Below, one piece after another: positions 1 to 13,233 of a stretch of DNA of 64,000 bases. The DNA comes from Staphylococcus carnosus (GTDB taxonomy: Bacteria > Bacillota > Bacilli > Staphylococcales > Staphylococcaceae): contig NZ_UHCT01000001.1 of NCBI RefSeq assembly GCF_900458435.1, forward strand, positions 124,001-188,000, read 5' to 3'. Below the pieces are notes generated by a model. It ran no database searches. It had not been told where the DNA came from and worked only from the letters and a program-made list of their open reading frames with translations. The first letter of the stretch is position 1. Each line of letters begins with the position of its first letter. The translations under genes and the position numbers were made by a program.

Positions 1-125
1 AAATACTTTAAATATAATAGTTCCATATCAATTCTCCTATAAGTTGTAGTTTATAGTTCTATCAATTTTATATATTATTATATATAAGTTAGGGGCGTTA
101 TAATAGCATTAAGAGGTGAAGGAAA

Positions 126-1154
126 ATGAATATAGCAATTTATGGGGCAGGTTCATTAGGAACAATTATGGGAGCATTCCTTTCTGAATCTGATGCTAAT
201 GTAGATTTAATAGATGTAAACCAAGCACATGTGGATAAATTAAATGAAGAAGGCGCTCATGTTGTAGGGGCAACAGATTATCGTCACGCGGTACATGCTA
301 TTACACCTGATGAAGTCAATAAGCGATACGATATAATCTTGCTTTTAACAAAACAAGTGTTTAATCAACAAGTCATTCCGAAAGTCAGAGATATTTTGAA
401 ATTTAATGGTACAGTTGTATCATTACAAAATGGTATTCCTGAAGAGTTGATTCAAGAAGTATTGCCACCAGCTAATATTGTAGCGGGATCTGTAGAGTTC
501 GGAGCAACTTTCGAAGGTCCTGGTATTTCACGTTTAACAACTGAATTCGATACATTTAAAAACAACGCAATTCAAATCGGGGAATTAGATGGAGCAGTTA
601 CAGAACGCACAAAAGCAATCCAAAAAGCATTAGAACCTATCGGCGGTATTTCTGTATCAGATAATTTACCTGGTACAAAATGGGCTAAATTAATTATTAA
701 TAGCGCATTAAGCGGTATGTCTGCTGCAACAAACAGCACATATGGAGACGTTATGGATGATCCGATTGGTGCTAAAGCTGCAGTATATGCAATGAATGAA
801 GTAGTAAAAGTAGGTAAAAGTAATGGCATAGAATTTGAAAAACTAAGTGTATTAAATCCAGAAGCATTTGCAGAAATTACAGACGAAAAAGCGCAAATTG
901 AAATCATGAAAGAATCATTAAAAGCTTCAAGATCAATCGAAGCAAGTATGCTGCAAGATTTAAGAAAAGGAAGAGCCACAGAAATTAATTACATTAATGG
1001 AGCTGTCACTAAAATAGGTAAAGCAAATGGTATTTTAACTCCGGTAAATGATTTAATTGTAGACATTGTATCTAAAGCTCAAGATAACAAAAAAGTACCT
1101 GACTTTGATGAAAGTATGGGACAATTTAAAAAGTTATTTGATACAAACAAATAG
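126..1154 (+). CDS. Ketopantoate reductase-family (PanE/ApbA) oxidoreductase
   Basis: Predicted cytoplasmic NADP-dependent 2-oxo-acid reductase of 342 aa, a normal length for the family. The N-terminus is a Rossmann fold opening with IAIYGAGSLGTIMGAFL. The middle keeps the family pattern VVSLQNGIPEE, and the segment GTKWAKLIINSALSGMSA (about residues 180-200) holds the catalytic-lysine region followed by the all-helical C-terminal domain. The start has a good ribosome site (AAGAGGTGAAGG just upstream). An acetoacetate-decarboxylase-like gene follows after 14 bases, so the two are probably cotranscribed. That pairing does not fit plain pantothenate synthesis, and the true substrate is probably another 2-oxo acid or beta-keto compound. 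Family is secure; substrate is unknown. Confidence 0.85.
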   Translation: MNIAIYGAGSLGTIMGAFLSESDANVDLIDVNQAHVDKLNEEGAHVVGATDYRHAVHAITPDEVNKRYDIILLLTKQVFNQQVIPKVRDILKFNGTVVSLQNGIPEELIQEVLPPANIVAGSVEFGATFEGPGISRLTTEFDTFKNNAIQIGELDGAVTERTKAIQKALEPIGGISVSDNLPGTKWAKLIINSALSGMSAATNSTYGDVMDDPIGAKAAVYAMNEVVKVGKSNGIEFEKLSVLNPEAFAEITDEKAQIEIMKESLKASRSIEASMLQDLRKGRATEINYINGAVTKIGKANGILTPVNDLIVDIVSKAQDNKKVPDFDESMGQFKKLFDTNK

Positions 1155-1168
1155 TTAAGGAGTGAAGC

Positions 1169-1906
1169 ATGATGGATAAAGAACAAGTTAAAAATATATC
1201 AGCAACACCGATTAACGCACCTGTCTTTCCGATGACAGAAATTAAGTTCAGAAATAGAGAATATCTCAATATTATTTATGAAACAGATAAAGCTGCTTTA
1301 GAAGAAATAGTACCTGAACCATTAAAAGTTACAAGCAACCGTATTAAATTTGAAGTTATCAATATGCCGGATAGTACTGGATTAGGGAGCTATAAAGAAG
1401 CAGGACATGTAATACCTGTTGAATATAACGGTGAAAAAGGTGAATTTTATCTGTCTATGTATGTTAGTAATCAAGCAGCAATTGCAAGCGGCAGAGAGAT
1501 TGCAGCTTTTCCTAAAAAAGCTGGAAATCCTGATTTATTTGTAGACAATGATACACTTGTTGGAACACTTGATTATAACTCTTTACGTGTTGCGCAAGCC
1601 ACAATGGCTTATAAATATTATAAAATGACAGATGAAGAAGCCCTAGCAGATGTTACTGCCCCTCAATTCATGTTAAAGTCTGTCAGAGACTATGATGGCA
1701 GTTTATTACGCTGTGAATTAACAAGAAGCCAAATTACGGATATAAAATTGAAAGAAGCTTATAGAGGACTAGCACGTTTGCAATTATTTGAACATGTAAT
1801 GGCACCGCTAGCAGATTTCCCTGTAAGAAAAATTGTAGATGCACATCATATTATTGCTGATTTAACATTAGGACAACCAAGCCCCGTTTACGATTACTTG
1901 AAATAA
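1169..1906 (+). CDS. Acetoacetate decarboxylase-family protein
   Basis: A 245-aa protein matching the acetoacetate decarboxylase (ADC) family in length and motifs. The segment EIAAFPKKAGNP corresponds to the active-site region of ADC, where adjacent lysines form the Schiff base with a beta-keto acid. It lies 14 bases after the PanE-like gene, preceded by AAGGAG, and two ATGs in a row (1169, 1172) could both serve as start. A Rho-independent terminator follows, so this is the last gene of a two-gene operon. It may decarboxylate acetoacetate or act as an ADC-like aldolase/dehydratase. Many family members do not decarboxylate acetoacetate, so the reaction is inferred only at family level. Confidence 0.85.
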   Translation: MMDKEQVKNISATPINAPVFPMTEIKFRNREYLNIIYETDKAALEEIVPEPLKVTSNRIKFEVINMPDSTGLGSYKEAGHVIPVEYNGEKGEFYLSMYVSNQAAIASGREIAAFPKKAGNPDLFVDNDTLVGTLDYNSLRVAQATMAYKYYKMTDEEALADVTAPQFMLKSVRDYDGSLLRCELTRSQITDIKLKEAYRGLARLQLFEHVMAPLADFPVRKIVDAHHIIADLTLGQPSPVYDYLK

Positions 1907-1927
1907 AATATAAAGCAGTTTAAACAG

Positions 1928-1961
1928 AGAACCTGTACTAAAAAGTATAGGTTCTTTTTTT
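1928..1961 (+). terminator. Rho-independent terminator of the PanE/ADC operon
   Basis: AGAACCTGTACT (1928-1939) pairs with AGTATAGGTTCT (1944-1955), with one G-U pair. A loop of four A residues separates the arms and a run of T follows. Confidence 0.9.
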
Positions 1962-2022
1962 ACAGTAAAAACAGAAGTAAATTCATTTATATATCTGCAC
2001 ACAAATGCATTTCTTCACAAAT

Positions 2023-2051
2023 TTGACAATCGCTAAAGTGAAATAGATAAT
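2023..2051 (+). promoter_or_regulatory. Sigma-A promoter of the sensor kinase gene
   Basis: A consensus -35 box TTGACA (2023-2028) lies 17 bases before GATAAT (2046-2051). A nearby TATAAT (2056-2061) is 27 bases from the -35 box and so too far. Transcription would start near 2058, leaving a leader of about 150 bases before the first in-frame ATG of the kinase at 2205. Confidence 0.6.
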
Positions 2052-2204
2052 AGTATATAATTATGAATAATCATAATATTCTAATCTTTGCACTTTTGGG
2101 AATGATGCGATATAGAAAATGTTCGAGAAATATGTAAACAACACACAAATTTAACAGAAGATGAAATTAAAGAAATTGAAGAATTATCGAAACACTTACC
2201 GACT

Positions 2205-3530
2205 ATGGCAAATCTTAATGAAGCCAGTGTTTTTATTGATTGTCCTACTGAAAATAACGATCATATCATTGTAGTAGCAGAAGCCATGCCAGATCAAAAT
2301 GACGTTTTATATCATAATTCAGTCATTAAACAGAATGCTTATGAAAGATTTGAACCAGCTGTGTTCGAAGTTTTTAAAACTAAGAAAAGTGTATATCATC
2401 ATAGAGGAATGTCACAAGAGGGTAAAGTGATTGAACAAAATGTCACTCCTATTATTCATAATAATCGAGTGATTGCTGCATTGATTATGGAAAAAGATAT
2501 CAGCAACCAATTGCTTGAGGAAAATAAAATGAAAGCATTGACTGAAGCAACCTATACGTTGAGTCAAATCGTATCACATCCGAGTGAGAAACAGCTATTT
2601 TTCTCAGATATGATTGATGAAAGTTTGTTTGATATCGATCAAGACTTGATTATCCGTTATTTTAATCTAACAGCAGAAAAACTAGTAAAAGATATTGTTG
2701 GTATTGATTGCAAAATGGGACTTTCTTTCGTCGAGTTGTTTCCTAACATAGAAGAAATGTTAACAGATGGGCAAGTGATTACAATTAAAGAACGAAAGCT
2801 GCAAGGTCATTACTTTCAAGTAAAGTGTATTCGATTATTTGATGATTTAGGGAATGTATCAGGACACATCATCATGTTACATGACATTACTGACTTAAAG
2901 GAAAAGGAGAAAGAACTTGTTTCTAAATCTGTTGCACTTCGTGAAGTACATCACCGTGTGAAAAACAATCTACAAACAGTTGCGAGCTTATTAAGGTTAC
3001 AAATGCGTCGTGGCATACCTGATGAAAGCAAGCATTATTTTGAAGAGAGTTTAAATAGAATCCTTAGTATTGCCTCTGTATATGAAGTGATATTAGATGG
3101 GGCGTATGCTGATCAAGTTGATATTGGCAAATTGATTGTTAAAATCGGGAATATGCTTGTAAGTACAGGGAACGCGCAACATTTACATATTCATTATGAC
3201 ATCCAAGAAACATTTTATCTGTCATCTAATATTGCAGTCTCAGTCGCTTTGATTGCTAATGAATTGATTACAAATTGTGTCACTCATGCTTTTAATGAAC
3301 AAGAAGAAGGTCATATTGATGTTGTTTTTGAAAAAAATAACAAAACTGGGAAAATACTATTAATGGTGCAAGATGATGGGAAGGAAGAACAAGGAGATTA
3401 TAAGCAATCGTTTGGACTAAATATCATAAATACAATTACTGAGAATGATTTAGAAGGAAAATTTACAATTGGTCGCAATCATCTCGGCACTTTGGGAAAG
3501 GTGGTATTTGATGAGTGGGGGAGTCACTAA
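2205..3530 (+). CDS. EutW/PdtaS-like sensor histidine kinase (5' end uncertain)
   Basis: Cytosolic histidine kinase of at least 441 aa. It has no membrane segment and resembles EutW/PdtaS. In order it has an H_kinase_N-type sensor domain (about 1-105), a PAS domain (about 145-235), a HisKA_2 dimerisation box with LREVHHRVKNNLQTVASLL (phospho-acceptor H in VHHRVKNN), and a HATPase_c domain (N box ANELITNCV, G box QDDG). It overlaps the ANTAR response regulator by 20 bases, so the two form one two-component pair. In known cases ethanolamine triggers EutW autophosphorylation and transfer to EutV. The ATG at 2205 has no ribosome site. The same frame stays open and protein-like (REICKQHTNLTEDEIKEIEE) back to 2106 without an ATG, GTG or TTG. 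The real start was therefore probably upstream, and a TA slip or an unusual start codon may be involved. Confidence 0.85.
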   Translation: MANLNEASVFIDCPTENNDHIIVVAEAMPDQNDVLYHNSVIKQNAYERFEPAVFEVFKTKKSVYHHRGMSQEGKVIEQNVTPIIHNNRVIAALIMEKDISNQLLEENKMKALTEATYTLSQIVSHPSEKQLFFSDMIDESLFDIDQDLIIRYFNLTAEKLVKDIVGIDCKMGLSFVELFPNIEEMLTDGQVITIKERKLQGHYFQVKCIRLFDDLGNVSGHIIMLHDITDLKEKEKELVSKSVALREVHHRVKNNLQTVASLLRLQMRRGIPDESKHYFEESLNRILSIASVYEVILDGAYADQVDIGKLIVKIGNMLVSTGNAQHLHIHYDIQETFYLSSNIAVSVALIANELITNCVTHAFNEQEEGHIDVVFEKNNKTGKILLMVQDDGKEEQGDYKQSFGLNIINTITENDLEGKFTIGRNHLGTLGKVVFDEWGSH

Positions 3531-4101
3531 ATTTAAGAAAATTATTGTTGCTGAAGATGATTCAATTGTCCGTTTAGATATCGTTGAAATGTTGAAAGAT
3601 GCAGGTTATGATGTTGCCTCTGCTGTGGGAAATGGAGAAAAAGCAATTGAATTGAATGAAACAGAAAAACCAGATTTAATTATTATGGATATTAAGATGC
3701 CAAAACTAAATGGTTTAAAGGCAAGTAAGATTATCAGTCAGCGTCATAATGTACCTATCTTAATCGTATCAGCATTCAACCAAAGCGAATATATTGAACA
3801 AGCTAAAGATGCTAATATTGTAGGATATATCATCAAACCGATTTCAGAATCTCAGTTATTGACTGCAGTTGAAATTGCTCTAGCACAATCTGTGAAGATG
3901 TCAGCACTTAGACAAGAGTCGAATGCGGCAAAAGAGGAAGTTGAAAATCGTAAACTCATAGAAAAAGCAAAAGGATTGTTGATGACTAAAATGGAATTAG
4001 ATGAAGAAGCGGCTTATCAGAAGTTACGCAAATTGAGTATGAACCATCATATTTCAATGGAGAAAGTAGCCGCAAAAGTCATTAAGCAGTTGACTAAATG
4101 A
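3511..4101 (+). CDS. EutV-like response regulator with ANTAR RNA-binding domain
   Basis: 196-aa response regulator that acts on RNA rather than DNA. The receiver domain (about 1-120) has the acidic pocket AEDD, the phosphoacceptor Asp in LIIMDIKMPKLNG, and the conserved Lys in IIKPISES. After a coiled linker comes an ANTAR domain (about 135-190: RKLIEKAKGLLMTKMELDEE...AYQKLRKLSM), the fold of EutV, NasR and AmiR. ANTAR dimers bind paired hexaloop hairpins in leader RNAs and block a terminator. I place the start at 3511, preceded by AAAGGTGG, within the 3' end of the kinase gene. Two candidate targets lie in this window: the eutH leader just downstream and the leader of the aldehyde dehydrogenase operon. 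Confidence 0.92.
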   Translation: MSGGVTKFKKIIVAEDDSIVRLDIVEMLKDAGYDVASAVGNGEKAIELNETEKPDLIIMDIKMPKLNGLKASKIISQRHNVPILIVSAFNQSEYIEQAKDANIVGYIIKPISESQLLTAVEIALAQSVKMSALRQESNAAKEEVENRKLIEKAKGLLMTKMELDEEAAYQKLRKLSMNHHISMEKVAAKVIKQLTK

Positions 4102-4266
4102 CATAAATTATAAAAGTGAATAGCATATAAAGCAAAGATGCTTACATTGACCGAGAGGTCTGTAGGCATCTTTTTGCATTTTAGGAGGTGGTTTAAAAAC
4201 AGTATATCCAAGAATTGAAACAATGTTATTGCTAATAAACTCAACGATTTAATGGGGGAATGCTTT
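4102..4266 (+). promoter_or_regulatory. eutH leader with ANTAR-type antiterminator/terminator switch
   Basis: Untranslated stretch between the ANTAR regulator and eutH. A hairpin AAGC-AAAGAT-GCTT (4130-4143) has a six-base loop with A at position 1 and G at position 4, the signature of ANTAR targets. Its 3' side overlaps the 5' arm of a strong intrinsic terminator (4137-4175), so the two structures exclude each other. Upstream is AAGTGAAT (4114-4121), which also precedes the equivalent hairpin in the leader at 9429-9543. A first hexaloop hairpin there (AAAGTG at 4113-4118) would have only a weak A-U stem with a mismatch, so the dual-hairpin form is not proven. AGCAT (4122-4126) can also pair with ATGCT (4138-4142) as an alternative antiterminator. 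Confidence 0.75.
4137..4175 (+). terminator. Regulated intrinsic terminator in the eutH leader
   Basis: GATGCTTACA (4137-4146) pairs with TGTAGGCATC (4161-4170), and inside it GACC-GAGA-GGTC (4149-4160) forms the tip. TTTTT follows. It sits before eutH, not after a gene end, and overlaps the ANTAR hexaloop hairpin. Confidence 0.85.
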
Positions 4267-5550
4267 ATGGAACATATTGGTACAGTAATCATATATATCA
4301 TCATGATTTGTGCAGTATTGGGCGCTTTTGGAGCAATCAGGAATCCTGAAGTTGGAATCGGTAAAGAATTTATGGAAGGGATATTTACAATTGGTCCTAT
4401 CTTTGCCAATTCAGCAGGAATTATGGCATCTATTCCGTTTATTTCACGTTTTATTGAGCAAGTATTCGGGCCGTTATTTCATAAAATAGGCGCTGACCCA
4501 GCCATTGCTGCAACTTCAATATTAGCCACAGATATGGGTGGATACCAATTAGCAAATGTCTTAAAAGAAAGTTATGAAGGATGGATTATGGCAATGATTG
4601 TAGGATTTATGGCAGGCGCTACAATTGTATTCTCTATTCCTTTAGGGTTGCCGATGTTAGAAAAAAGGGATCATAAATATATGGCATTAGGGATATTGTC
4701 TGGATTATTAGCAATTCCTTTTGGTGTATTTATTTCTACATTTATTATGATTATGAGTCATGTAAAAATAAGAACAACTATAGAAACAGTGGGCGCAGCC
4801 ACACATGTATTTTCAATTAGTTTTTCTACAGTGTTATTGAATTTATTGCCTTTACTCATTTTTGTTGTCGTCACAGCAGCAGGTTTATATTTCTTCTCAG
4901 ATATTATGATTAAAGGATTTATCATTTTCGGTAAAATTTTAGATGTTTGTATCAAACTCGTCTTTGTATTCTCAGTAGTACAGATTTTCACTGGATTTTT
5001 CACAAATGTATTTGGTGTATGGGGATTTGATCCCATCATGGCAGATGATAAAGACAAATTCAGAGCTTTGGAAAATGCTGGGAATATCGCAATTATGCTT
5101 TCCGGAGCATTTCCGATGGTTTACTTAATTAGAAAATACTTTTCAAATGCTTTAACACGATTTGGACAAAAAGTAGGACTGAGTGAAGTGGGAAGTGCAG
5201 GGATTATTGCTACAATGGCTAATATTTTAGCAATGTTTAAATTGGTTAAAGATATGCCGCCTAAAGATAAAGTTATAAATATTTCATTTGGTGTATGTTC
5301 AGCTTTCTTGCTTGGAGACCATCTCTCTTACACCGCTAATTTCCAACCCAATTTAATCCCGGCAGTCATGATTGGTAAATTCAGTGCTGGACTCATTGCT
5401 ATTGGGTTTGCTTATCTCTTATGTTTGCCTAAAGCAAGAAAATTGGAAGAAATTGATCGACGTGCAGGTATTATTAAACCCGATGAATATTTAGAAGAAG
5501 AAGCAATTGAACGCGGTGAAGCAGTTCCAGAAACAAAATCTAAAATATAA
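4267..5550 (+). CDS. eutH: Ethanolamine permease EutH
   Basis: Polytopic inner-membrane protein of 428 aa with about 10-11 hydrophobic segments, matching the EutH family that brings ethanolamine into the cell. Family-typical stretches are FGAIRNPEVGIGKEFMEG near the N-terminus, ATDMGGYQLA around residue 85, and FLLGDHLSYTANFQP around 360. I choose ATG 4267 because GGGGGA lies 7 bases before it; the in-frame ATG at 4252 would place that ribosome site inside the gene. It follows the ANTAR regulator and a leader switch, the order seen in enterococcal and listerial eut loci, but eutABC and shell genes are missing here. Expression is probably induced by antitermination. Confidence 0.92.
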   Translation: MEHIGTVIIYIIMICAVLGAFGAIRNPEVGIGKEFMEGIFTIGPIFANSAGIMASIPFISRFIEQVFGPLFHKIGADPAIAATSILATDMGGYQLANVLKESYEGWIMAMIVGFMAGATIVFSIPLGLPMLEKRDHKYMALGILSGLLAIPFGVFISTFIMIMSHVKIRTTIETVGAATHVFSISFSTVLLNLLPLLIFVVVTAAGLYFFSDIMIKGFIIFGKILDVCIKLVFVFSVVQIFTGFFTNVFGVWGFDPIMADDKDKFRALENAGNIAIMLSGAFPMVYLIRKYFSNALTRFGQKVGLSEVGSAGIIATMANILAMFKLVKDMPPKDKVINISFGVCSAFLLGDHLSYTANFQPNLIPAVMIGKFSAGLIAIGFAYLLCLPKARKLEEIDRRAGIIKPDEYLEEEAIERGEAVPETKSKI

Positions 5551-5562
5551 ATCCAATCTATC

Positions 5563-5608
5563 AAAACTGCCTAAGCATCATTTACTTAATTTTGTTTAGG
5601 CAGTTTTA
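5563..5608. terminator. Bidirectional terminator after eutH
   Basis: AAACTGCCTAA (5564-5574) pairs with TTAGGCAGTTT (5596-5606), with T/A-rich flanks on both sides. It ends the eutH transcript. Confidence 0.85.
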
Positions 5609-5632
5609 ATAGAGATAACAGGACTATAAAAC

Positions 5633-5678
5633 AAATTAAAACAGAGCTGAAGGGAGTTGATCAGCTCTGTTTTAATTT
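5633..5678. terminator. Terminator with 18-bp perfect stem, mainly for the convergent operon
   Basis: The arms 5633-5650 and 5661-5678 are exact inverted repeats (core ACAGAGCTGA / TCAGCTCTGT) around a 10-base loop, with A/T-rich ends. It lies downstream of the minus-strand short-chain dehydrogenase gene and would end that operon. Confidence 0.85.
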
Positions 5679-5729
5679 AGGTTTGCTTATTTTATTTAGG
5701 AAGGTTTTAGGAGTAATTTCAGGTTATTC

Positions 5730-6497
5730 TTAGAAATAATTAGCAGTTATACCGCCATCTACATTAATATTTGCACCATTTGTCCAATTTGATTCATCTG
5801 AAGCAAGATAGATGGCACAATTGACAATATCTTCAGGTTTGCCGAAACGTCCTGCAGGTTGGCGGCCTAGACGGACTGCTTTGGCTTCTTCATCAGATAC
5901 AAGCCATTCCATTAATAAAGGTGTTTCTATAGGACCTGGGCTGATAGCATTGGTTCTGATACCTTTAGGTCGGAATTGAATAGCTAATGATTTTGTTAAT
6001 GCGACTACTGCCCCTTTAGATGCAGTATAGGCATCCTGAGGAACCGAACAACCCATTTGAGCTACAAAAGAAGCAATATTAATAATAGATCCGGATTCTT
6101 GTTTTTCCATAACTGGAATAACATATTTTGTCATCAAGAAAATACCTTTAACATTGATATTCATCACTAAGTCCCAAACTGCTTGATCAGTATTGATAAC
6201 AGAGTTGTCAGCTTCTGGCATCACACCTGCATTATTGTATAACACATCAATACGACCATATTCTTCAACAACCTTGTCTACTGCGTTTTTTACAGCATCT
6301 TCATCAATAATATCGACTTCATAGAAAGAGGCTTCACCGCCATCTTGCTTGATTTGATCCACAACTTGTTTTCCTGCTTTTTGATCTCTTTCAAATACAG
6401 CAACTTTCGCACCTTCTTTAGAAAACATCTCTGCTGCGACTTTACCCATGCCGCCGCCAGCACCTGTTATAATGCATACTTTATCTTTTAATCTCAT
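5730..6497 (-). CDS. Short-chain dehydrogenase/reductase, last gene of the amine operon
   Basis: 255-aa classical SDR. The cofactor motif is TGAGGGMG near residue 14, followed by NNAG near 90, a catalytic Ser in NIASF and YTASKGAVVAL (YxxxK). The C-terminal part has ISPGPIETPL, as in NAD-dependent alcohol dehydrogenases of this class. The start is taken at 6497, where AAGGAGGC lies 7 bases upstream; a longer reading would begin at 6521. It is the third gene of the aldehyde dehydrogenase / ligase / SDR operon. If the ligase makes a gamma-glutamyl amino alcohol, this enzyme is the natural candidate to oxidise its hydroxyl group to the aldehyde. Family is certain; that substrate is inference. 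Confidence 0.85.
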   Translation of the reverse strand: MRLKDKVCIITGAGGGMGKVAAEMFSKEGAKVAVFERDQKAGKQVVDQIKQDGGEASFYEVDIIDEDAVKNAVDKVVEEYGRIDVLYNNAGVMPEADNSVINTDQAVWDLVMNINVKGIFLMTKYVIPVMEKQESGSIINIASFVAQMGCSVPQDAYTASKGAVVALTKSLAIQFRPKGIRTNAISPGPIETPLLMEWLVSDEEAKAVRLGRQPAGRFGKPEDIVNCAIYLASDESNWTNGANINVDGGITANYF

Positions 6498-6546
6498 ATG
6501 AATAGCCTCCTTAATAATCAATGTTGAAATTTATATAGCAATAAGA

Positions 6547-7968
6547 TTAACCTTGTTCAAAGTAACGCGCACGTTCCCAAGTTGTTACAAATGAATCGTA
6601 TTCATCTTGTTCTGTTTGCGCTGCATGTAAATAGTGTTTTGCTACTTCTTCGCCAAGAACTTCTTTTACAACGTCACTGTTTTTCCATTCTAAAATAGCT
6701 TGGTGAAGAGAAGATGGAATACGATCCACTTCGTTTTGTTCATACGCATTTCCTTTTAACTCATCAGTTAAAGTTTCTTTATGTTCAATACCATATAAAC
6801 CAGCACCGATTAAAGCGGCATAAGCAAGATATGGATTCATGTCTGCCCCGCAAATACGAGATTCAAAACGTAAAGCATTGCCATCACCTACAACACGATA
6901 ACCAGCAGAACGGTTATCTTTACTCCATGCTATACTCACTGGTGCCCAACTATTAGGAGCAAATCGTTTATAAGAATTGATATTCGGAGCAAACATCAAT
7001 GCAAAATCTTTTGTATATTTGATAACACCCGCTAAGAAATGCTGCATTGTTTCTGACATTGGATTTGATGCATCATCGCCTGCATAAAAAGCATTTTTGC
7101 CAGTTTTTGTATCCATCATACTTAGATGAATATGACCGCTTGAACCTGTCCATTCTTCAAAAGGTTTAGCCATAAAAGTGACAGATTTATCATTTTGAAT
7201 ACAGATTTCTTTCATCCCATGTTTGAACATCAAATGTTGATCTGCTGCATTGATTGCATCTGAATATTTTAAGTTGATTTCGTGTTGTCCTTTGTAAGCT
7301 TCGCCTTTAGAAGATTCAACGATAATGTCCATAAGGCTCATCTGGCGACGAATTTCTTGATAAAGCGGTTCGTTTTTTGAACCTTGCAATAAATTGTAGT
7401 CTTCGTTTAAATGACCTGCTGGTTCTAATTCATCATAGCCTTGTGTATTAATATCTTTGAAAGAATCATTAAATAAATAAAATTCTAATTCACTGGCCAT
7501 ATGAGGAGATAGACCATAAGCTTCAGCTTTTTTGATTTGGTGTTGTAAGATGTTGCGTGGTGCAACGCTAATCGGTTCACTGCCGTCTACAGTGTATACA
7601 TCTGCGAAAACCATAGCTGTACGTGACATCCAAGGAATTACTTTTAAGGTGTTCCAATCTGGTAGTGCTAAATAATCACCATATCCTTTGTCCCAATTCA
7701 TGAAGTCATAGCCATCATCCGTATCCATTTCGAAGTTTGTACCTAAGAGATAGTTACAAAAATGTGTGCCCTCTGAAATGTCATTTTCTAAAATGAAATC
7801 GCCTGTGATACGTTTCCCCATCAAGCGTCCTTGCATATCGCAAAAACCAAGTACTAAAGTATCAATTTCGCCTTTATCAATCATTTCCATCATTTCATCT
7901 TTTGTGATGTTTCCAGTTTTCTTTTTGTTACGACGATGTTTGTTAAAATCATTAATTTCTCTAAACAT
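6547..7968 (-). CDS. Glutamine synthetase-like gamma-glutamyl-amine ligase
   Basis: 473-aa type-I-like glutamine synthetase homologue. It retains the metal/ATP residues: SELEFYLF (Glu), GQHEINLKYSDA (Glu/His region), SSGHIHLSM (His), NSYKRF and the Arg-rich VVGDGNALRFESRICGAD. The N-terminal TLVLGFCDMQGRLMGKRI is typical of the subfamily that glutamylates amines (PuuA, IpuC, GlnA3/GlnA4) rather than ammonia. It lacks the Bacillus GlnA context (no glnR beside it). It lies 20 bases after an aldehyde dehydrogenase gene and before an SDR, and opposite eutH and an ANTAR system. I infer ATP-dependent gamma-glutamylation of ethanolamine or a similar amine, as shown for Streptomyces GlnA4. Ribosome site GGGGGCG precedes ATG 7968. 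Confidence 0.8.
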   Translation of the reverse strand: MFREINDFNKHRRNKKKTGNITKDEMMEMIDKGEIDTLVLGFCDMQGRLMGKRITGDFILENDISEGTHFCNYLLGTNFEMDTDDGYDFMNWDKGYGDYLALPDWNTLKVIPWMSRTAMVFADVYTVDGSEPISVAPRNILQHQIKKAEAYGLSPHMASELEFYLFNDSFKDINTQGYDELEPAGHLNEDYNLLQGSKNEPLYQEIRRQMSLMDIIVESSKGEAYKGQHEINLKYSDAINAADQHLMFKHGMKEICIQNDKSVTFMAKPFEEWTGSSGHIHLSMMDTKTGKNAFYAGDDASNPMSETMQHFLAGVIKYTKDFALMFAPNINSYKRFAPNSWAPVSIAWSKDNRSAGYRVVGDGNALRFESRICGADMNPYLAYAALIGAGLYGIEHKETLTDELKGNAYEQNEVDRIPSSLHQAILEWKNSDVVKEVLGEEVAKHYLHAAQTEQDEYDSFVTTWERARYFEQG

Positions 7969-7988
7969 TTGAAACGCCCCCTTAATAT

Positions 7989-9428
7989 TTATGCATCTAA
8001 TGAAAGTGAAATATATTTCAATTCTAAGAAACCATCTAATCCATAATGTCCGCCTTCACGTCCCATCCCGCTTTCTTTGATACCGCCGAATGGTGCTTGT
8101 GGGACACTTAATTGAGTACCATTTACACCAATCATTCCGAAATCTAATTGTTCACTGACTTGATAGACAGTATTTACATTGTTTGAGAAGAAGTAAGCTG
8201 CTAAACCATACGGAGAAGCATTAGCAATTTTAATAGCTTCAGCAATTGTATCGAAAGAAATAATGGGTGCTACGGGTCCGAATATTTCTTCTTTAGCAAT
8301 AGACATCTCTGGTTTAACATTTGTGACGACTGTAGGTTGATAAAACAAGTCAGAAGGTGAATTCTCAACTTTTTTACCGCCAGTAGCAATATTTGCACCC
8401 GCTTTTTCAGCTTCACTTACGAGTTTTTCAACTTTTTCGATAGCTCCTGAATTAATTAATGGACCGACTTGAACATCCTTTTGATTACCAGGACCAACTC
8501 TTAACTGTGTCACACGCTCAATAACCTTAGTTATAAGTTCATCTTTAACTTCGCTTTGCGCAAGCACTGTATTAATGCCATTGCACATCTGCCCTGTATT
8601 TTCGAATTTATTTTCTACAATTGCATCTGCTGCTTTATCTAAGTCTGCATCATTTAACACGATAACTGGTGCATTTCCGCCAAGTTCTAAAGAGATACGT
8701 TTCACTTGATCAGCAGCTTTTTTCATCAATAACTTTCCAATGTCTGTAGAGCCGGTGAAAGAAATTTTGCTGACACGACGGTCATTTAAAAGTGTCTCAG
8801 AAATAAGTGATGACTTGCCTGTTATCAAATTTGCTGCACCATTATCGATGCCAGTTGCCATTAATTCATCCAAAATAGCAATCGCTATACGCGGTGTTTC
8901 ACTAGACGGTTTAACGATAACTGTACATCCTGCTGCAAGTGCGGGTGATACTTTTCTAGCTACCATAGCACCTGGGAAATTCCATGGTGTGATAAGTGCG
9001 CAAACCCCTACAGGTTGTTTAATGACTGAAATTCGTTGGTTAGGTGAAGAGGGTGGAATAATCTCACCGTATATCCGTTTTCCTTCTTCAGCATTCCATT
9101 TAATGAATTGAGCACACCCTTCAATCTCTCCTAAAGATTCGCCATAAGGCTTACCTTGTTCTTCAGTCATGATAGAAGCGAGTTTTTCTTTTTTTTGAAG
9201 TAAGTTATCAGCCCATGCATGTAAATATTCAGCACGTTCAGCAGCTGTTAATTTTGACCAAGAAGAGAACGCTTGATATGAAGCATCAATTGCATCATTG
9301 ATTAAACCTTCAGTTACGCTAGGCACTTCTCCGATCACTTCGTTTGTTGCTGGGTTAGTGACTTTCAAGGTGTTGTCAGTTTGAACTTTCTTGCCATTAA
9401 TCCAATTATGATTCAAATTATCTACCAT
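7989..9428 (-). CDS. NAD(P)-dependent aldehyde dehydrogenase
   Basis: 479-aa aldehyde dehydrogenase close to the GabD/PuuC class. The cofactor motif is FTGSTDIG (about residue 225), the general base Glu is in SLELGGNAP (about 250), and the catalytic Cys is in NTGQMCNG (about 285). EEIFGPVAPI and the C-terminal PFGGIKESGMGREGG are also present. It is the first gene of the operon with the glutamine-synthetase-like ligase and SDR, and is preceded by AAGGAGG. Its leader contains a terminator and ANTAR-type hexaloop like the one before eutH. In a gamma-glutamylation route it would oxidise the gamma-glutamyl aldehyde to the acid. Class is sure; substrate is inference from context. Confidence 0.9.
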   Translation of the reverse strand: MVDNLNHNWINGKKVQTDNTLKVTNPATNEVIGEVPSVTEGLINDAIDASYQAFSSWSKLTAAERAEYLHAWADNLLQKKEKLASIMTEEQGKPYGESLGEIEGCAQFIKWNAEEGKRIYGEIIPPSSPNQRISVIKQPVGVCALITPWNFPGAMVARKVSPALAAGCTVIVKPSSETPRIAIAILDELMATGIDNGAANLITGKSSLISETLLNDRRVSKISFTGSTDIGKLLMKKAADQVKRISLELGGNAPVIVLNDADLDKAADAIVENKFENTGQMCNGINTVLAQSEVKDELITKVIERVTQLRVGPGNQKDVQVGPLINSGAIEKVEKLVSEAEKAGANIATGGKKVENSPSDLFYQPTVVTNVKPEMSIAKEEIFGPVAPIISFDTIAEAIKIANASPYGLAAYFFSNNVNTVYQVSEQLDFGMIGVNGTQLSVPQAPFGGIKESGMGREGGHYGLDGFLELKYISLSLDA

Positions 9429-9543
9429 ATAAATCTCCTCCTTAACACAAAAAGAGGCCTACACAGATATCCTTTAAGGATACTGTATAAGCCTCTTTGC
9501 TCAATTAAATTCACTTGTATATTTCAGAAAGTCTAGCGACTTA
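9429..9543 (-). promoter_or_regulatory. ANTAR-type leader of the aldehyde dehydrogenase/ligase/SDR operon
   Basis: On the minus strand, a hairpin GAGC-AAAGAG-GCTT (9502 down to 9489) has a hexaloop with A at position 1 and G at 4. It overlaps the 5' arm of an intrinsic terminator. AAGTGAAT (9516 down to 9509) lies 6 bases upstream. The same blocks in the same order occur in the eutH leader (AAGTGAAT, then AGCAAAGAtGCTTA), although the terminator stems otherwise differ in sequence. This points to control of both transcripts by the ANTAR protein encoded at 3511-4101. Confidence 0.75.
9449..9495 (-). terminator. Regulated leader terminator upstream of the aldehyde dehydrogenase gene
   Basis: Read on the minus strand, GAGGC (9495-9491) pairs with GCCTC (9458-9454), with further pairing inside (TATCC / GGATA at the tip), followed by TTTTT (9453-9449). 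The ribosome site AAGGAGG of the dehydrogenase gene comes right after it, so this terminator controls entry into the operon. Confidence 0.8.
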
Positions 9544-9549
9544 AAAACA

Positions 9550-9600
9550 ATGTTACTAAATATTCAGAACCTTGTCAATATTCAATCTCTAGATTATACT
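9550..9600. promoter_or_regulatory. Overlapping divergent promoters sharing a -35 region
   Basis: Minus strand: TTGACA (9578-9573), 17 bases, then TAACAT (9555-9550), driving the aldehyde dehydrogenase operon. Plus strand: TTGTCA (9572-9577), 17 bases, then TATACT (9595-9600), driving the M20 gene at 9633. The two -35 boxes are the two strands of the same seven bases, so the two units would compete or share control. Confidence 0.6.
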
Positions 9601-9632
9601 GTGACCTAACTTAAAAGAGAGAAGGGATTTCT

Positions 9633-10712
9633 ATGACAAAGACATTAGACTTATTGAAATCGTTAATTGAATTTGACAGTTCAACCAAAGATGAAGCGAA
9701 TAAAACACTCCAATTTTGTAAAAATTGGTTGGAGCAAGAAGGACTAGAACCCGTACGATTATCCAACGAAGGATTTGATTCTCTTATTTGTAATGTTGGA
9801 GCAGGAGAAAAAAGATTAATTTTGAATGGTCATTTAGATGTAGTGAGTGGTAATCCTAATCAATTTGAACCTAAGGTTGAAGGGAATAAGATTTATGGTC
9901 GCGGATCAGCAGACATGAAAGCAGGTGTAAGTGCCATGATGAGTGCTCTGAGCGAGTTGCAACATAAAGATTTAGGTAATACATCTGTTCAGTTGCAGCT
10001 TGTAACGGATGAAGAAATCGGCGGAAAACATGGTGCTAATTTCTTAACAGATCAAGGTTATTTAGGGGATTTTGTCATTTGTGGAGAACCGACTCAATTA
10101 GGAATCGGTTACCAAGCTAAGGGAATATTGCAAGTGGATATTCATTTGAAGGGAAAATCTGCACATGGCAGCCGACCTTGGGAAGGGGATAATGCAATTG
10201 AAAAGGCATTGGAAACATATCAAAAAATATTGAATTTGCCTTTTGCTAAAGAATCTACAGAATTGTTTGAAGGTCCATCTATTAATCTAGCCAAAATAAG
10301 AGGGGGATCTGTTTATAACAAAGTGCCGGATGAAGCGGTTATTTCGTATGATATAAGATTTTTGCCAGGTCAAAGCGAAAAAGAAATTTTAAAGCAAATT
10401 GAAAATGAAATTGATGGTGAAATTTCAATTCATTTGTCTGGTGCTTCAGTAATGAATGAAACAGATAATCCGTTCATACAAAAATTGGTTACAGAAATTT
10501 CGCAAGAAACGCATCAATCACCTGAATCAGTGAAGTTATTCGGACAACACGGATTTGCAGATACAAGATATTTCGCTAGATTTGGAACGCCAGCCGTTGA
10601 ATTTGGTCCGTCAGGTGCAGCTTGGCATGGAGATGGTGAGTATGCAGAGATTGATTCTATAAAAATCTATAAAGATATCTTAGTGAGATTTGCAGAATCT
10701 TTTTCAAATTAA
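9633..10712 (+). CDS. M20 family metallo-amidohydrolase (ArgE/DapE type)
   Basis: 359-aa zinc amidohydrolase. It shows the M20 metal ligands in order: LNGHLDVV (HxD), GRGSADMKAG (bridging Asp), DEEIGG (catalytic Glu-Glu), GEPT, and a late His in GAAWHGDGE. A dimerisation domain, with SAHGSRPWEGDNAIE, lies at about residues 170-280. The family removes acyl or aminoacyl groups from amino acids. The gene is divergent from the aldehyde dehydrogenase operon with an overlapping promoter, so it may cleave the end product (for example a gamma-glutamyl amino acid). A second, very similar gene lies at 39116-40219. Family secure; substrate unknown. Confidence 0.85.
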   Translation: MTKTLDLLKSLIEFDSSTKDEANKTLQFCKNWLEQEGLEPVRLSNEGFDSLICNVGAGEKRLILNGHLDVVSGNPNQFEPKVEGNKIYGRGSADMKAGVSAMMSALSELQHKDLGNTSVQLQLVTDEEIGGKHGANFLTDQGYLGDFVICGEPTQLGIGYQAKGILQVDIHLKGKSAHGSRPWEGDNAIEKALETYQKILNLPFAKESTELFEGPSINLAKIRGGSVYNKVPDEAVISYDIRFLPGQSEKEILKQIENEIDGEISIHLSGASVMNETDNPFIQKLVTEISQETHQSPESVKLFGQHGFADTRYFARFGTPAVEFGPSGAAWHGDGEYAEIDSIKIYKDILVRFAESFSN

Positions 10713-10720
10713 TTATGTAA

Positions 10721-10762
10721 AAAAGTGTGAATGCTTAGGAAAAATGACATTCATACTTTTAA
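10721..10762 (+). terminator. Terminator after the first M20 gene
   Basis: AAAGTGTGAATG (10722-10733) pairs with CATTCATACTTT (10748-10759) with one G-U pair. T-rich sequence follows. Confidence 0.8.
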
Positions 10763-10891
10763 TTTTTAAATTTTTAAAGTAATTGAAAATAAAATACATT
10801 TCAAATCTGAATATTCACAATATTAAAACGTTATGGTATTCTATATCTATTCGAAAGGGCTTACAAAAGAATATAAACAAGGGGCGATTTT

Positions 10892-12199
10892 ATGAATTTA
10901 GCGATTTTAGGATTCATCATGATTATCGTGTTTATGGTTTTAATCATGAGCAGAAAAATGTCAGCATTAGTGGCATTAATTGTAGTACCAGTAGTTTTTG
11001 GCTTAATCGGGGGATTTTATTCAAGCTTAGGAAAAGACATTTTAGAGGGCTTAACAACTGTAGCTCCAACTGGAATTATGTTGATATTTGCAATTTTGTA
11101 TTTTGGAGTCATGATTGATGCAGGGTTATTCAACCCCATCATCCGTATCATTATGAAAGGAGTTAAAGGAGACCCAGTTAAAATTACAATTGGAACAGTA
11201 GCTTTGGCTTCCATCGTTGCATTAGATGGGGATGGCACGACAACATTTATTATCACAGTCACAGCAATGATGCCGCTTTATAAGAAAATGGGGATGAACC
11301 TATACATATTATCTACATTAGCTTTATTATCAATTGGTGTAATGAATATGACACCTTGGGGAGGACCGACAGCACGTGCAATTTCTTCCTTACAGCTTAC
11401 CACTGAAGAAGTCTTTACCCCTATTATTCCAGTGATGGTTGCAGGTATTTTATTTGCTTTCTTTGCCGCATATGTTTTAGGTACACGTGAAAGAAAAAGA
11501 ATTGGTATTCAAAATAATTTATCTCTTACATTAGACGAAATGAATAATGCTAATGGTACAGACGAAGACGATAAAGAACTTTTAAGACCGAAATTGACAA
11601 TTATTAATGCTGTATTAACAATTGCGTTGTTGGTCGCATTGATTACTAGCTTTTTGCCAATTCCTGTTCTCTTTATGCTTGGCTTTGCAGTGGCGCTTAT
11701 TATTAATTACCCACATTTGAATATACAATCTGAAATTATCAAACGCCATGCAGGAAATGTTTTAGCTGTTGTAAGTTTAGTTTTTGCATCAGGAGTTTTC
11801 ACTGGTGTAATGAGTGGGACAAAAATGGTGGATGCAATGGCTGGCTCTTTAGTAAATATTGTGCCAGATGCAATGGGAAATCATTTTGCTTTAATTACCG
11901 CAGTTTTGAGTATGCCTTTTACTTACTTCATGGCTAATGATCCATTTTATTATGGTATCCTTCCGATACTGGCGGAATCTGCACATCAATTTGGAATCTC
12001 TAAAGCCATGATGGCAAGAGCATCTATTTTAGGACAACCTTTACACGTGCTAAGCCCGTTATATGCAGCAGGTTATTTATTGGTTGGTATGCTTGGTATC
12101 GATTATGGTACTAACCAAAAAATTGTCATGAAGTGGGCAATAGGGTCATCATTATTTATGATTTTAGTGGCCGGTTTGATAGGGATTATTGCATTTTAA
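10892..12199 (+). CDS. CitMHS-family metal-carboxylate:proton symporter
   Basis: 435-aa membrane protein with about 11-12 hydrophobic helices, matching the CitMHS family (Bacillus CitM/CitH), which imports citrate or related carboxylates as metal complexes. Conserved stretches include LIFAILYFGVMIDAGLF (about 65-80), IVALDGDGTTTFIIT (about 108) and MTPWGGPTARA (about 150). A charged cytoplasmic loop (DEDDKELLRPK) lies in the middle. The ribosome site AAGGGGCG precedes ATG 10892. It stands alone between two terminators. The cargo might be citrate, or a carboxylate made by the preceding catabolic genes; the sequence does not decide. Confidence 0.85.
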   Translation: MNLAILGFIMIIVFMVLIMSRKMSALVALIVVPVVFGLIGGFYSSLGKDILEGLTTVAPTGIMLIFAILYFGVMIDAGLFNPIIRIIMKGVKGDPVKITIGTVALASIVALDGDGTTTFIITVTAMMPLYKKMGMNLYILSTLALLSIGVMNMTPWGGPTARAISSLQLTTEEVFTPIIPVMVAGILFAFFAAYVLGTRERKRIGIQNNLSLTLDEMNNANGTDEDDKELLRPKLTIINAVLTIALLVALITSFLPIPVLFMLGFAVALIINYPHLNIQSEIIKRHAGNVLAVVSLVFASGVFTGVMSGTKMVDAMAGSLVNIVPDAMGNHFALITAVLSMPFTYFMANDPFYYGILPILAESAHQFGISKAMMARASILGQPLHVLSPLYAAGYLLVGMLGIDYGTNQKIVMKWAIGSSLFMILVAGLIGIIAF

Positions 12200-12214
12200 A
12201 TTAAAAAGAAGACA

Positions 12215-12252
12215 AAAGATGGTAACAACATTTAAAAGGTTACCATCTTTTT
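12215..12252 (+). terminator. Terminator after the CitMHS transporter
   Basis: AAAGATGGTAAC (12215-12226) and GTTACCATCTTT (12239-12250) are exact inverted repeats, followed by T residues. Confidence 0.9.
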
Positions 12253-12318
12253 ATTTGTCAAATAAATCTGAAAAATGGTAACGTACTTTTAATTATAAAA
12301 AATAAGGGAGGTTATGGA

Positions 12319-13233
12319 ATGCAACAACTATTAAAATGGAGACCTTATATTTTAACAATAATAGGTGCAGCCTGTTGGGGAATAATTGGATTGTTTATTC
12401 AACCATTGTACAACAGAGGGTTTACAGCTTGGGATGTGGTTACTATTCGAGGTGTATTGACGTTTATTTTTTTAATTGTATTTATGCTAGTGTCAAATCC
12501 CAAATCATTAAAATCAAGATGGCAAGATCACTTTTATTTTGCAGGTGCAGGAATTTTAAGTATGGTATTCTTCAATTATTTATATTTTGAAATATTTTCA
12601 CAATCTTCTTTATCACTTGCGGTAACTTTGCTTTATACAGGCCCTATTTTTGTAACCATACTTAGTCGAATTTTCTTCAAAGAATCCTTGAATTCTAATA
12701 AAATTATTGCGCTGATTTTATCTATAACAGGGTGTGGTTTCGTTGTTGGATTATTGCCTTCATTCAAAGTTGAAGTAAGCATTAAGATAATTGTGACAGG
12801 TATTCTTTCAGGGGTATGTTATTCACTTTATACAATTTTAACAAAGCCTGTGACAAAGCGTTATTCTGCTTTAACGATTACGACTTATAACTTTCTATAT
12901 ACTAGCCTCTTCATGATAATTTTCAGTAAAACACCTTCTAAAATTCAAAAATTTGCACATCCAGACGTTATTGGTGCTTCTATCGGTCTGGCATTTATTT
13001 CAACAGTAATGGCTTATATTCTTTATACAGCAGGCCTTAAACATCTAGAAGCCAGTAAAGCTTCAATTCTGGCAACACTAGAACCAATTGTAGCGATTTT
13101 ATGCGGAGTTATTTTTTTAGGAGATATATTAAATACGTGGCAAATTTTGGGGATTATCACTGTAATGTGTGCAACTATTATTGTAGGTAAAAATCCTCGT
13201 GTAAAAGGGCAAGAAGCTTTAAGTAGATATTAA
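12319..13233 (+). CDS. EamA/DMT-family permease
   Basis: 304-aa protein with ten hydrophobic segments arranged as two EamA repeats. The first repeat has AACWGIIGLFIQPLY, the second GILSGVCYSLYTILTKP, and the family end TLEPIVAILCGVIFLGD is near residue 255. These drug/metabolite-type transporters usually export amino acids or metabolites. GGGAGG lies before ATG 12319. A parS-like site and a TetR gene on the same strand follow. Substrate unknown. Confidence 0.85.
   Translation: MQQLLKWRPYILTIIGAACWGIIGLFIQPLYNRGFTAWDVVTIRGVLTFIFLIVFMLVSNPKSLKSRWQDHFYFAGAGILSMVFFNYLYFEIFSQSSLSLAVTLLYTGPIFVTILSRIFFKESLNSNKIIALILSITGCGFVVGLLPSFKVEVSIKIIVTGILSGVCYSLYTILTKPVTKRYSALTITTYNFLYTSLFMIIFSKTPSKIQKFAHPDVIGASIGLAFISTVMAYILYTAGLKHLEASKASILATLEPIVAILCGVIFLGDILNTWQILGIITVMCATIIVGKNPRVKGQEALSRY

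Follow-up and report, generated by a model that had tools for sequence, protein, structure and literature searches.

A predicted gamma-glutamylation route for ethanolamine joined to EutH, EutW/EutV-like regulators and ANTAR-type sites in Staphylococcus

The use of ethanolamine by Gram-positive bacteria is commonly equated with EutBC, vitamin B12 and, often, microcompartments. A stretch of 64,000 nucleotides (positions 124001-188000 of contig 1, here called the window and numbered from its first base) from a Staphylococcus genome (2.58 Mb, 99.99% complete) raises the question of what becomes of ethanolamine where the genes expected to sense and import it stand beside a glutamine-synthetase-like ligase. 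The answer favoured here, with a probability of roughly three in four, is that a EutH-family transporter, EutW/EutV-like regulators and ANTAR-type sites ahead of eutH as well as of the ligase operon are joined to enzymes predicted to carry ethanolamine through gamma-glutamylation to glycine and glutamate, with no EutB or shell gene found in the genome.

On the plus strand, a EutW-like sensor histidine kinase of the PdtaS type (2109..3530; GAF_PdtaS, HisKA_2 and ATPase domains in Pfam) is followed by a EutV-like response regulator with receiver and ANTAR RNA-binding domains (3511..4101; Pfam) and by eutH (4252..5550), a predicted ethanolamine importer that scores 689.7 bits against the curated cut-off of 575 for subfamily NF011668. 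Solved EutH structures gave no sequence match up to an E value of 1. Convergent with these genes, on the minus strand, are a short-chain dehydrogenase/reductase (SDR; 5730..6521; Pfam), the ligase (6547..7968; PF00120) and an aldehyde dehydrogenase (aldh; 7989..9428; Pfam), the operon being transcribed in the order aldh-ligase-sdr; in other loci the SDR stays beside the ligase and the aldehyde dehydrogenase is kept. Divergent from this operon, on the plus strand, lies an M20 metallohydrolase (9633..10712; Pfam). Pfam and NCBIfam searches place every gene named in the preliminary description of this DNA where that description had put it. The same gene order is kept in all 11 other same-genus loci seen whole and in 3/3 further loci; a twelfth same-genus locus is interrupted by a contig end, and the ligase of that genome lies on another contig. 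The arrangement is far from chance.

The genes, their order and joint inheritance, the sites in the RNA and the lack of EutB are observed; the mechanism proposed is predicted in its substrate and in every enzymatic step. Ethanolamine would activate the EutW-like kinase, leading to phosphorylation of the EutV-like protein, which would bind the AGC-AAAGAK-GCT hairpin in both nascent leaders and block the overlapping terminators; with termination prevented, eutH and aldh-ligase-sdr would be switched on. Ethanolamine imported by EutH would then be converted with ATP and glutamate to gamma-glutamylethanolamide by the ligase, a predicted gamma-glutamylethanolamide synthetase. The SDR, a predicted gamma-glutamylethanolamide (alcohol) dehydrogenase, followed by the aldehyde dehydrogenase, presumably acting on gamma-glutamyl-aminoacetaldehyde, would yield gamma-glutamylglycine, from which the M20 enzyme, a predicted gamma-glutamylglycine hydrolase, would release glycine and return the glutamate. 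The gamma-glutamylation route had been suggested in the preliminary description, and is supported overall by the lack of EutB, the separation of the ligase from GlnA and the sites in the leaders, while each catalytic step stays a prediction.

Searches of the whole genome found neither EutB nor a bacterial microcompartment shell protein, the same searches being positive in an E. coli control. The possibility that EutBC is encoded elsewhere in the genome is hence rejected, and the earlier claim that EutBC and shell genes are absent from this system extends from the locus to the genome. Apart from the EutV-like protein of this locus no ANTAR protein was found in the genome, and just two members of the glutamine synthetase family are present, the locus ligase and, at 1.597 Mb, an ordinary GlnA. 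An Rfam scan of positions 1-13000, with E values up to 5, returned four matches, all below their gathering scores and none from an ANTAR or cobalamin family.

The link between the regulators and the ligase operon lies in the RNA leaders. The whole genome holds two exact copies of AGCAAAGAKGCTTA, at 4131 on the plus strand before eutH and at 9501 on the minus strand before the aldehyde dehydrogenase gene, each copy overlapping a terminator; a third genomic place differs by one mismatch, and a reversed-pattern control gave 0 matches. The eut leaders of E. faecalis have in common AGCAANGRRGCUY overlapping a terminator (PMC3369931), a consensus from which the eutH site departs by one base and the aldh site by none. 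Motif search and leader comparison place a P2 hexaloop hairpin, AGC-AAAGAT-GCT, at 4131..4142 (plus strand), overlapped by an intrinsic terminator at 4134..4175, and another, AGC-AAAGAG-GCT, at 9490..9501 (minus strand), with the terminator 3' of the hairpin. Both terminators fold more stably than any of 200 shuffles (z -5.29 for eutH, -5.28 for aldh). In a set of 13 eutH and 12 aldh leaders from 13 staphylococcal genomes, one aldh leader being lost to a contig end, the P2 hexaloop with A1 and G4 overlaps the terminator in 25/25, as it does in both leaders of the window. The pattern AGC-A..G..-GCT with a fourth stem pair is likewise found in 25/25, the 3' arm of the stem being taken up by another hairpin. 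ANTAR control, at first inferred from the regulator alone, is connected with the ligase operon by a site and a terminator in the leader of that operon.

The components of this system are also inherited together. Among 60 genomes (this one, 36 of the same genus and 23 of the same order), the EutH subfamily exceeds its cut-off in 13, all within the genus (13/37), and a ligase of at least 74% identity is found in those same 13 and in none of the others. Two near-identical species aside, the kinase has 40-65% identity to its counterpart in the window, the ANTAR protein 56-66%, EutH 82-88%, the SDR 79-83% and the ligase 74-82%; the aldehyde dehydrogenase and the M20 enzyme, with nine loci each, have 57-73% and 52-64%. 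A wider sample comprised 57 Bacilli genomes encoding this EutH, 48 of them drawn from 398 Bacilli genomes and nine being further genomes of the genus. Every Staphylococcus genome with this EutH has the ligase and none has EutB (16/16 and 0/16), whereas 39 of the 41 genomes from other genera have EutB, and a ligase of at least 74% identity is present in none of the 41. No relative of the ligase, M20 enzyme or aldehyde dehydrogenase was seen in 42 EutH loci taken from these 41 genomes with flanks of 8 kb, shorter where a contig ended. A loose ANTAR motif lies within 400 nt upstream of eutH in 29/42 of them, relatives of both eutW and eutV are nearby in 11/42, and one locus (Bacilli) has the order eutW-eutV-eutH-eutP-eutA-eutB-eutC. 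This sensing and import module appears to have kept its parts and changed its enzymes.

Two features of this sample may be recorded separately. Many of the eutH genes in EutBC-bearing Bacilli (L181-L200 and others) have two upstream ANTAR motifs about 70-150 nt apart; no EutB lies within the stretch fetched around them, EutB being encoded elsewhere in the genome. Two genomes (G093 and G193, loci L221 and L222) have this EutH with neither EutB nor the ligase, and in L221 an SDR and a CobT-type phosphoribosyltransferase are among its neighbours.

The ligase operon also occurs elsewhere. A scan of named genomes yielded 439 encoded relatives, and among the best 80 loci, which were retained, 21 contain EutV or EutW relatives of at least 30% identity: nine of ten staphylococcal loci (the tenth is shortened), two from Siminovitchia, four from Fictibacillus, two from Scopulibacillus and one each from Pseudalkalibacillus, Alkalihalobacillus, Paenactinomyces and Alicyclobacillus. 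Both Siminovitchia loci also encode EutH (73%) and the M20 enzyme (59%); each of the two (L081 and L100) has two EutV-like proteins, of which one accompanies EutW next to EutH and the other immediately precedes the aldehyde dehydrogenase. An Eat-type ethanolamine permease is present in 5/6 scanned related loci without EutH; in one Fictibacillus and two Scopulibacillus loci the permease passes the Eat cut-off and an M20 enzyme is encoded as well, and two Thermomicrobium loci have a permease above the cut-off, one of them annotated eat. A C26 enzyme adjoins the ligase in Paenibacillus, Embleya, Nonomuraea and Arthrobacter U41, while an iron alcohol dehydrogenase and a gene annotated as N-formylglutamate amidohydrolase are present in the loci of S. 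meliloti and Paracoccus. It seems fairly probable, if less so than the route itself, that EutH, EutW, EutV and the ANTAR leader form one portable module whose catabolic enzymes have been swapped as a whole: EutBC with B12 in 10/12 genera sampled, against a B12- and shell-free gamma-glutamyl ligase route in staphylococci (and Siminovitchia), where M20 closes the route in place of the C26 or, by locus context alone, N-formylglutamate-amidohydrolase-type enzyme of other bacteria.

In Fictibacillus and Scopulibacillus (L083 and L085) the ligase operon has a glycerate kinase gene nearby, perhaps a hint at the fate of glycine, and on a plasmid of Streptomyces sp. NBC_01455 (L258) a glutamine-synthetase-like ligase of 35% identity has an ATP-grasp RiPP (tgm) cluster and an amino-acid permease as neighbours.

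M20 enzymes cleave N-acyl amino acids and, as gamma-glutamylglycine is an N-acyl amino acid, it would be an M20-type substrate, a step from family knowledge to this particular enzyme. Residues H67, D69, D94, E127, E128, E152 and H332, predicted from M20 motifs to be metal-binding or catalytic, are kept in 13/13 sequences of the subfamily, a set that excludes the Fictibacillus and Scopulibacillus rows as belonging to another subfamily. The nearest solved relative is the uncharacterised M20 peptidase 2rb7, followed by DapE- and ArgE-type enzymes. The route could run as described but end with a different hydrolase, such as a C26 enzyme encoded outside the window (234.8 bits, contig 1 109285-109932), with the M20 enzyme employed otherwise. 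This is the best of the alternatives and still an unlikely one: besides that strong match, C26 neighbours of the ligase in the four genera named above and the amidotransferase of the Streptomyces cluster (PMC6529630) speak for it, but a strong C26 match is found in only 4/37 genus genomes, compared with an M20 neighbour in 11/11 whole loci, and M20 genes of the other subfamily stand beside the ligase in Fictibacillus and Scopulibacillus, the Fictibacillus one behind an ANTAR motif. A PuuD-like C26 enzyme as a required last step in staphylococci was set aside, because of the four genomes that encode one, two have EutH (G000 and G004) and two do not (G018 and G023). The C26 gene itself (L033) resembles that for the gamma-glutamyl hydrolase PuuD, adjoins an amino-acid permease gene and is unlinked to EutH.

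Aligned to E. coli GlnA, the ligase keeps the metal ligands E160, E162, E223, E230, H279 and E369 together with R335, R371, H281 and R358, all of which are also found in the other 26 glutamine-synthetase-like rows compared. The residues for ATP, glutamate and metal are retained, whereas T274 replaces N264, E189 replaces Y179 and W341 replaces E327, the glutamate of the ammonia flap. The flap residue is F in GlnA4 and W in PauA7 (PMC6529630), and W also in the annotated IpuC of Paenarthrobacter aurescens TC1. In a tree of 29 rows, GlnA is separated from the ligase at 100/100, the ligase nests with rows from Bacilli and Chloroflexota (96/96), and rows with the GlnA4 signature form a near group (99/96). 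S. coelicolor GlnA4 and PauA7 are not among these rows, Embleya, Nonomuraea and Arthrobacter standing in by residue signature. IpuC and PuuA fall outside the ligase group on a weak fork (81/87), and their places are unsure, because both have long branches and the two meet in the tree. The preliminary description had named a full eutBC set elsewhere in the genome and a grouping of the ligase with ammonia-assimilating GlnA among the grounds for refutation; neither applies, given the lack of EutB, the split from GlnA and the loss of the flap glutamate. Identity to IpuC and PuuA is 36% and 27%, and the PuuA equivalog model NF045547 gives 208.5 bits, short of its cut-off of 650. Among solved structures, 11zs (E 9e-114) and 5dm3 (2.8e-109) come closest, and the one after them, named glutamine synthetase, stands at 9.4e-57. 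5dm3 is taken to be a Chromohalobacter salexigens protein.

These residues bear on a second alternative, that the substrate of the ligase, as of IpuC, is some other small amine (isopropylamine, ethylamine or 1-amino-2-propanol), and that EutH and EutVW sense and import that amine. The flap tryptophan held in common with IpuC, a pocket unlike that of GlnA4, and the presence of an SDR and an amidotransferase at IpuC loci would suit such a reading. It is nevertheless improbable, and somewhat more so than a different final hydrolase, as IpuC is distant and outside the ligase group, if on that weak fork, the same EutH subfamily accompanies EutBC in nearly all other-genus genomes that have it, and most scanned loci lacking EutH have an Eat permease instead. 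That the ligase is a second ammonia-assimilating glutamine synthetase, with nitrogen control through the ANTAR regulator, is very hard to sustain: it does belong to PF00120, and a 2012 perspective noted ANTAR leaders beside glutamine synthetase genes (PMC3369936), but it falls short of the GlnA model (243.7 bits, cut-off 429) and of the type III model (247.6 bits, cut-off 470), has lost the flap glutamate, is split from GlnA in the tree, follows EutH in the same 13/37 genus genomes and is accompanied by the ordinary GlnA elsewhere in the genome.

Several observations count against ethanolamine gamma-glutamylation under ANTAR control as set out here. With two mismatches allowed, the two motif matches in the window are not above chance (41/100 shuffles), so the weight of the case falls on the sites being exact and lying in leaders. 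In the window the M20 gene lacks its own ANTAR site, and the genome encodes further hydrolases that could act, the C26 enzyme among them. The ligase pocket, T274/E189/W341, differs from the E/V/F set of GlnA4 and shares its flap residue with IpuC; three of the 41 other-genus genomes hold a distant ligase (38-39%) alongside EutB; and the permease of the S. meliloti locus falls below the Eat cut-off. Finally, the P1 hairpin is not supported as a stem here, though required in E. faecalis (PMC3369931). A block AAGT[GA]AAT lies 6-9 nt 5' of P2 in 25/25 leaders, in the window as AAGTGAAT at 4114..4121 (plus strand, at the P1 place of the eutH leader) and at 9509-9516 (minus strand, aldh-ligase-sdr leader). 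Within it A1 and the closing pair are present in 25/25 leaders and G4 in 23/25, but a second pair in only 2/25. Of seven loop offsets tried around the block in search of a canonical P1 hairpin, one gives A1, G4 and the closing pair with no further stem. A single hexaloop has been argued to be the minimal ANTAR site in a structural paper of 2022 (PMC8934654), whereas deletion of P1 ablated induction in the work of 2012 (PMC3369931), and the unsupported P1 remains a caveat for that reason.

One detail concerns the start given in the preliminary description, 2112, which is an ATA codon. The conserved N-terminus has no in-frame ATG, GTG or TTG ahead of the ATG at 2205, the frame being open from 2109. 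The kinase lacks a standard start in 5/12 staphylococcal loci, and 9/12 have ATT in place of the ATG at 2205, so that translation may begin at a non-standard codon (ATT or ATA) or the gene may carry a frameshift. Shifted by one base from the kinase frame is an ATGATG (window 2094-2205).

If this reading is correct, a set of staphylococci associated with animals and food have a separate, B12-free path for ethanolamine, masked by the annotation 'glutamine synthetase', and an ANTAR regulon follows the signal rather than the enzymes. It would also offer a testable function for a widespread group of glutamine-synthetase-like ligases in Bacilli and Chloroflexota.

Within a limited literature collection, no title or abstract was found to connect this ligase with EutH or EutVW/ANTAR, and the claim to novelty is limited likewise. 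The enzymes themselves are less new than the preliminary description made them. The Streptomyces coelicolor glnA4 cluster SCO1610-SCO1615 (PMC6529630) likewise combines an SDR, an aldehyde dehydrogenase and a glutamine-synthetase-like ligase in a proposed ethanolamine gamma-glutamylation route, with an amidotransferase; what is new is therefore restricted to the EutH/EutVW/ANTAR wiring, the exchange for EutBC and the M20 enzyme in the last slot. GlnA4 glutamylates ethanolamine in vitro, and growth on ethanolamine requires it (PMC6529630). The steps of the SDR, the aldehyde dehydrogenase and the amidohydrolase were assigned by bioinformatic and transcriptional analysis, and a review reports the same steps as proposed for Chromohalobacter salexigens (PMC9397018). 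The glnA4 cluster resembles the Staphylococcus locus in its conserved glutamate, metal and ATP residues and in having no EutBC and no shell. It differs in its regulator, EpuRI rather than EutVW/ANTAR, in the lack of EutH, in an amidotransferase instead of M20, and in a pocket of E269/V189/F331 (PMC6529630).

The IpuC and PuuA routes likewise glutamylate an amine, oxidise the product and release it with a hydrolase, but with other amines, oxidases and regulators, and with the distant ligases noted above. A further parallel is the locus of Thermomicrobium roseum, with a ligase of 51% identity, the same T/E/W pocket, an adjoining SDR and an ethanolamine permease after that; it differs in having Eat for EutH, and no EutVW or ANTAR site was seen there. 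The EutVW/ANTAR loci with EutBC, in E. faecalis and in the Bacilli locus L192, have the same EutW-EutV-EutH and ANTAR-type sites overlapping terminators, but a P1 hairpin that is not supported in Staphylococcus, and EutA, EutB and EutC (EutP too in L192) where Staphylococcus has the ligase, SDR and aldehyde dehydrogenase. An enzymatic idea and a regulator, both of them known, are joined here in a way not found described, in a clear exchange for the B12 route.

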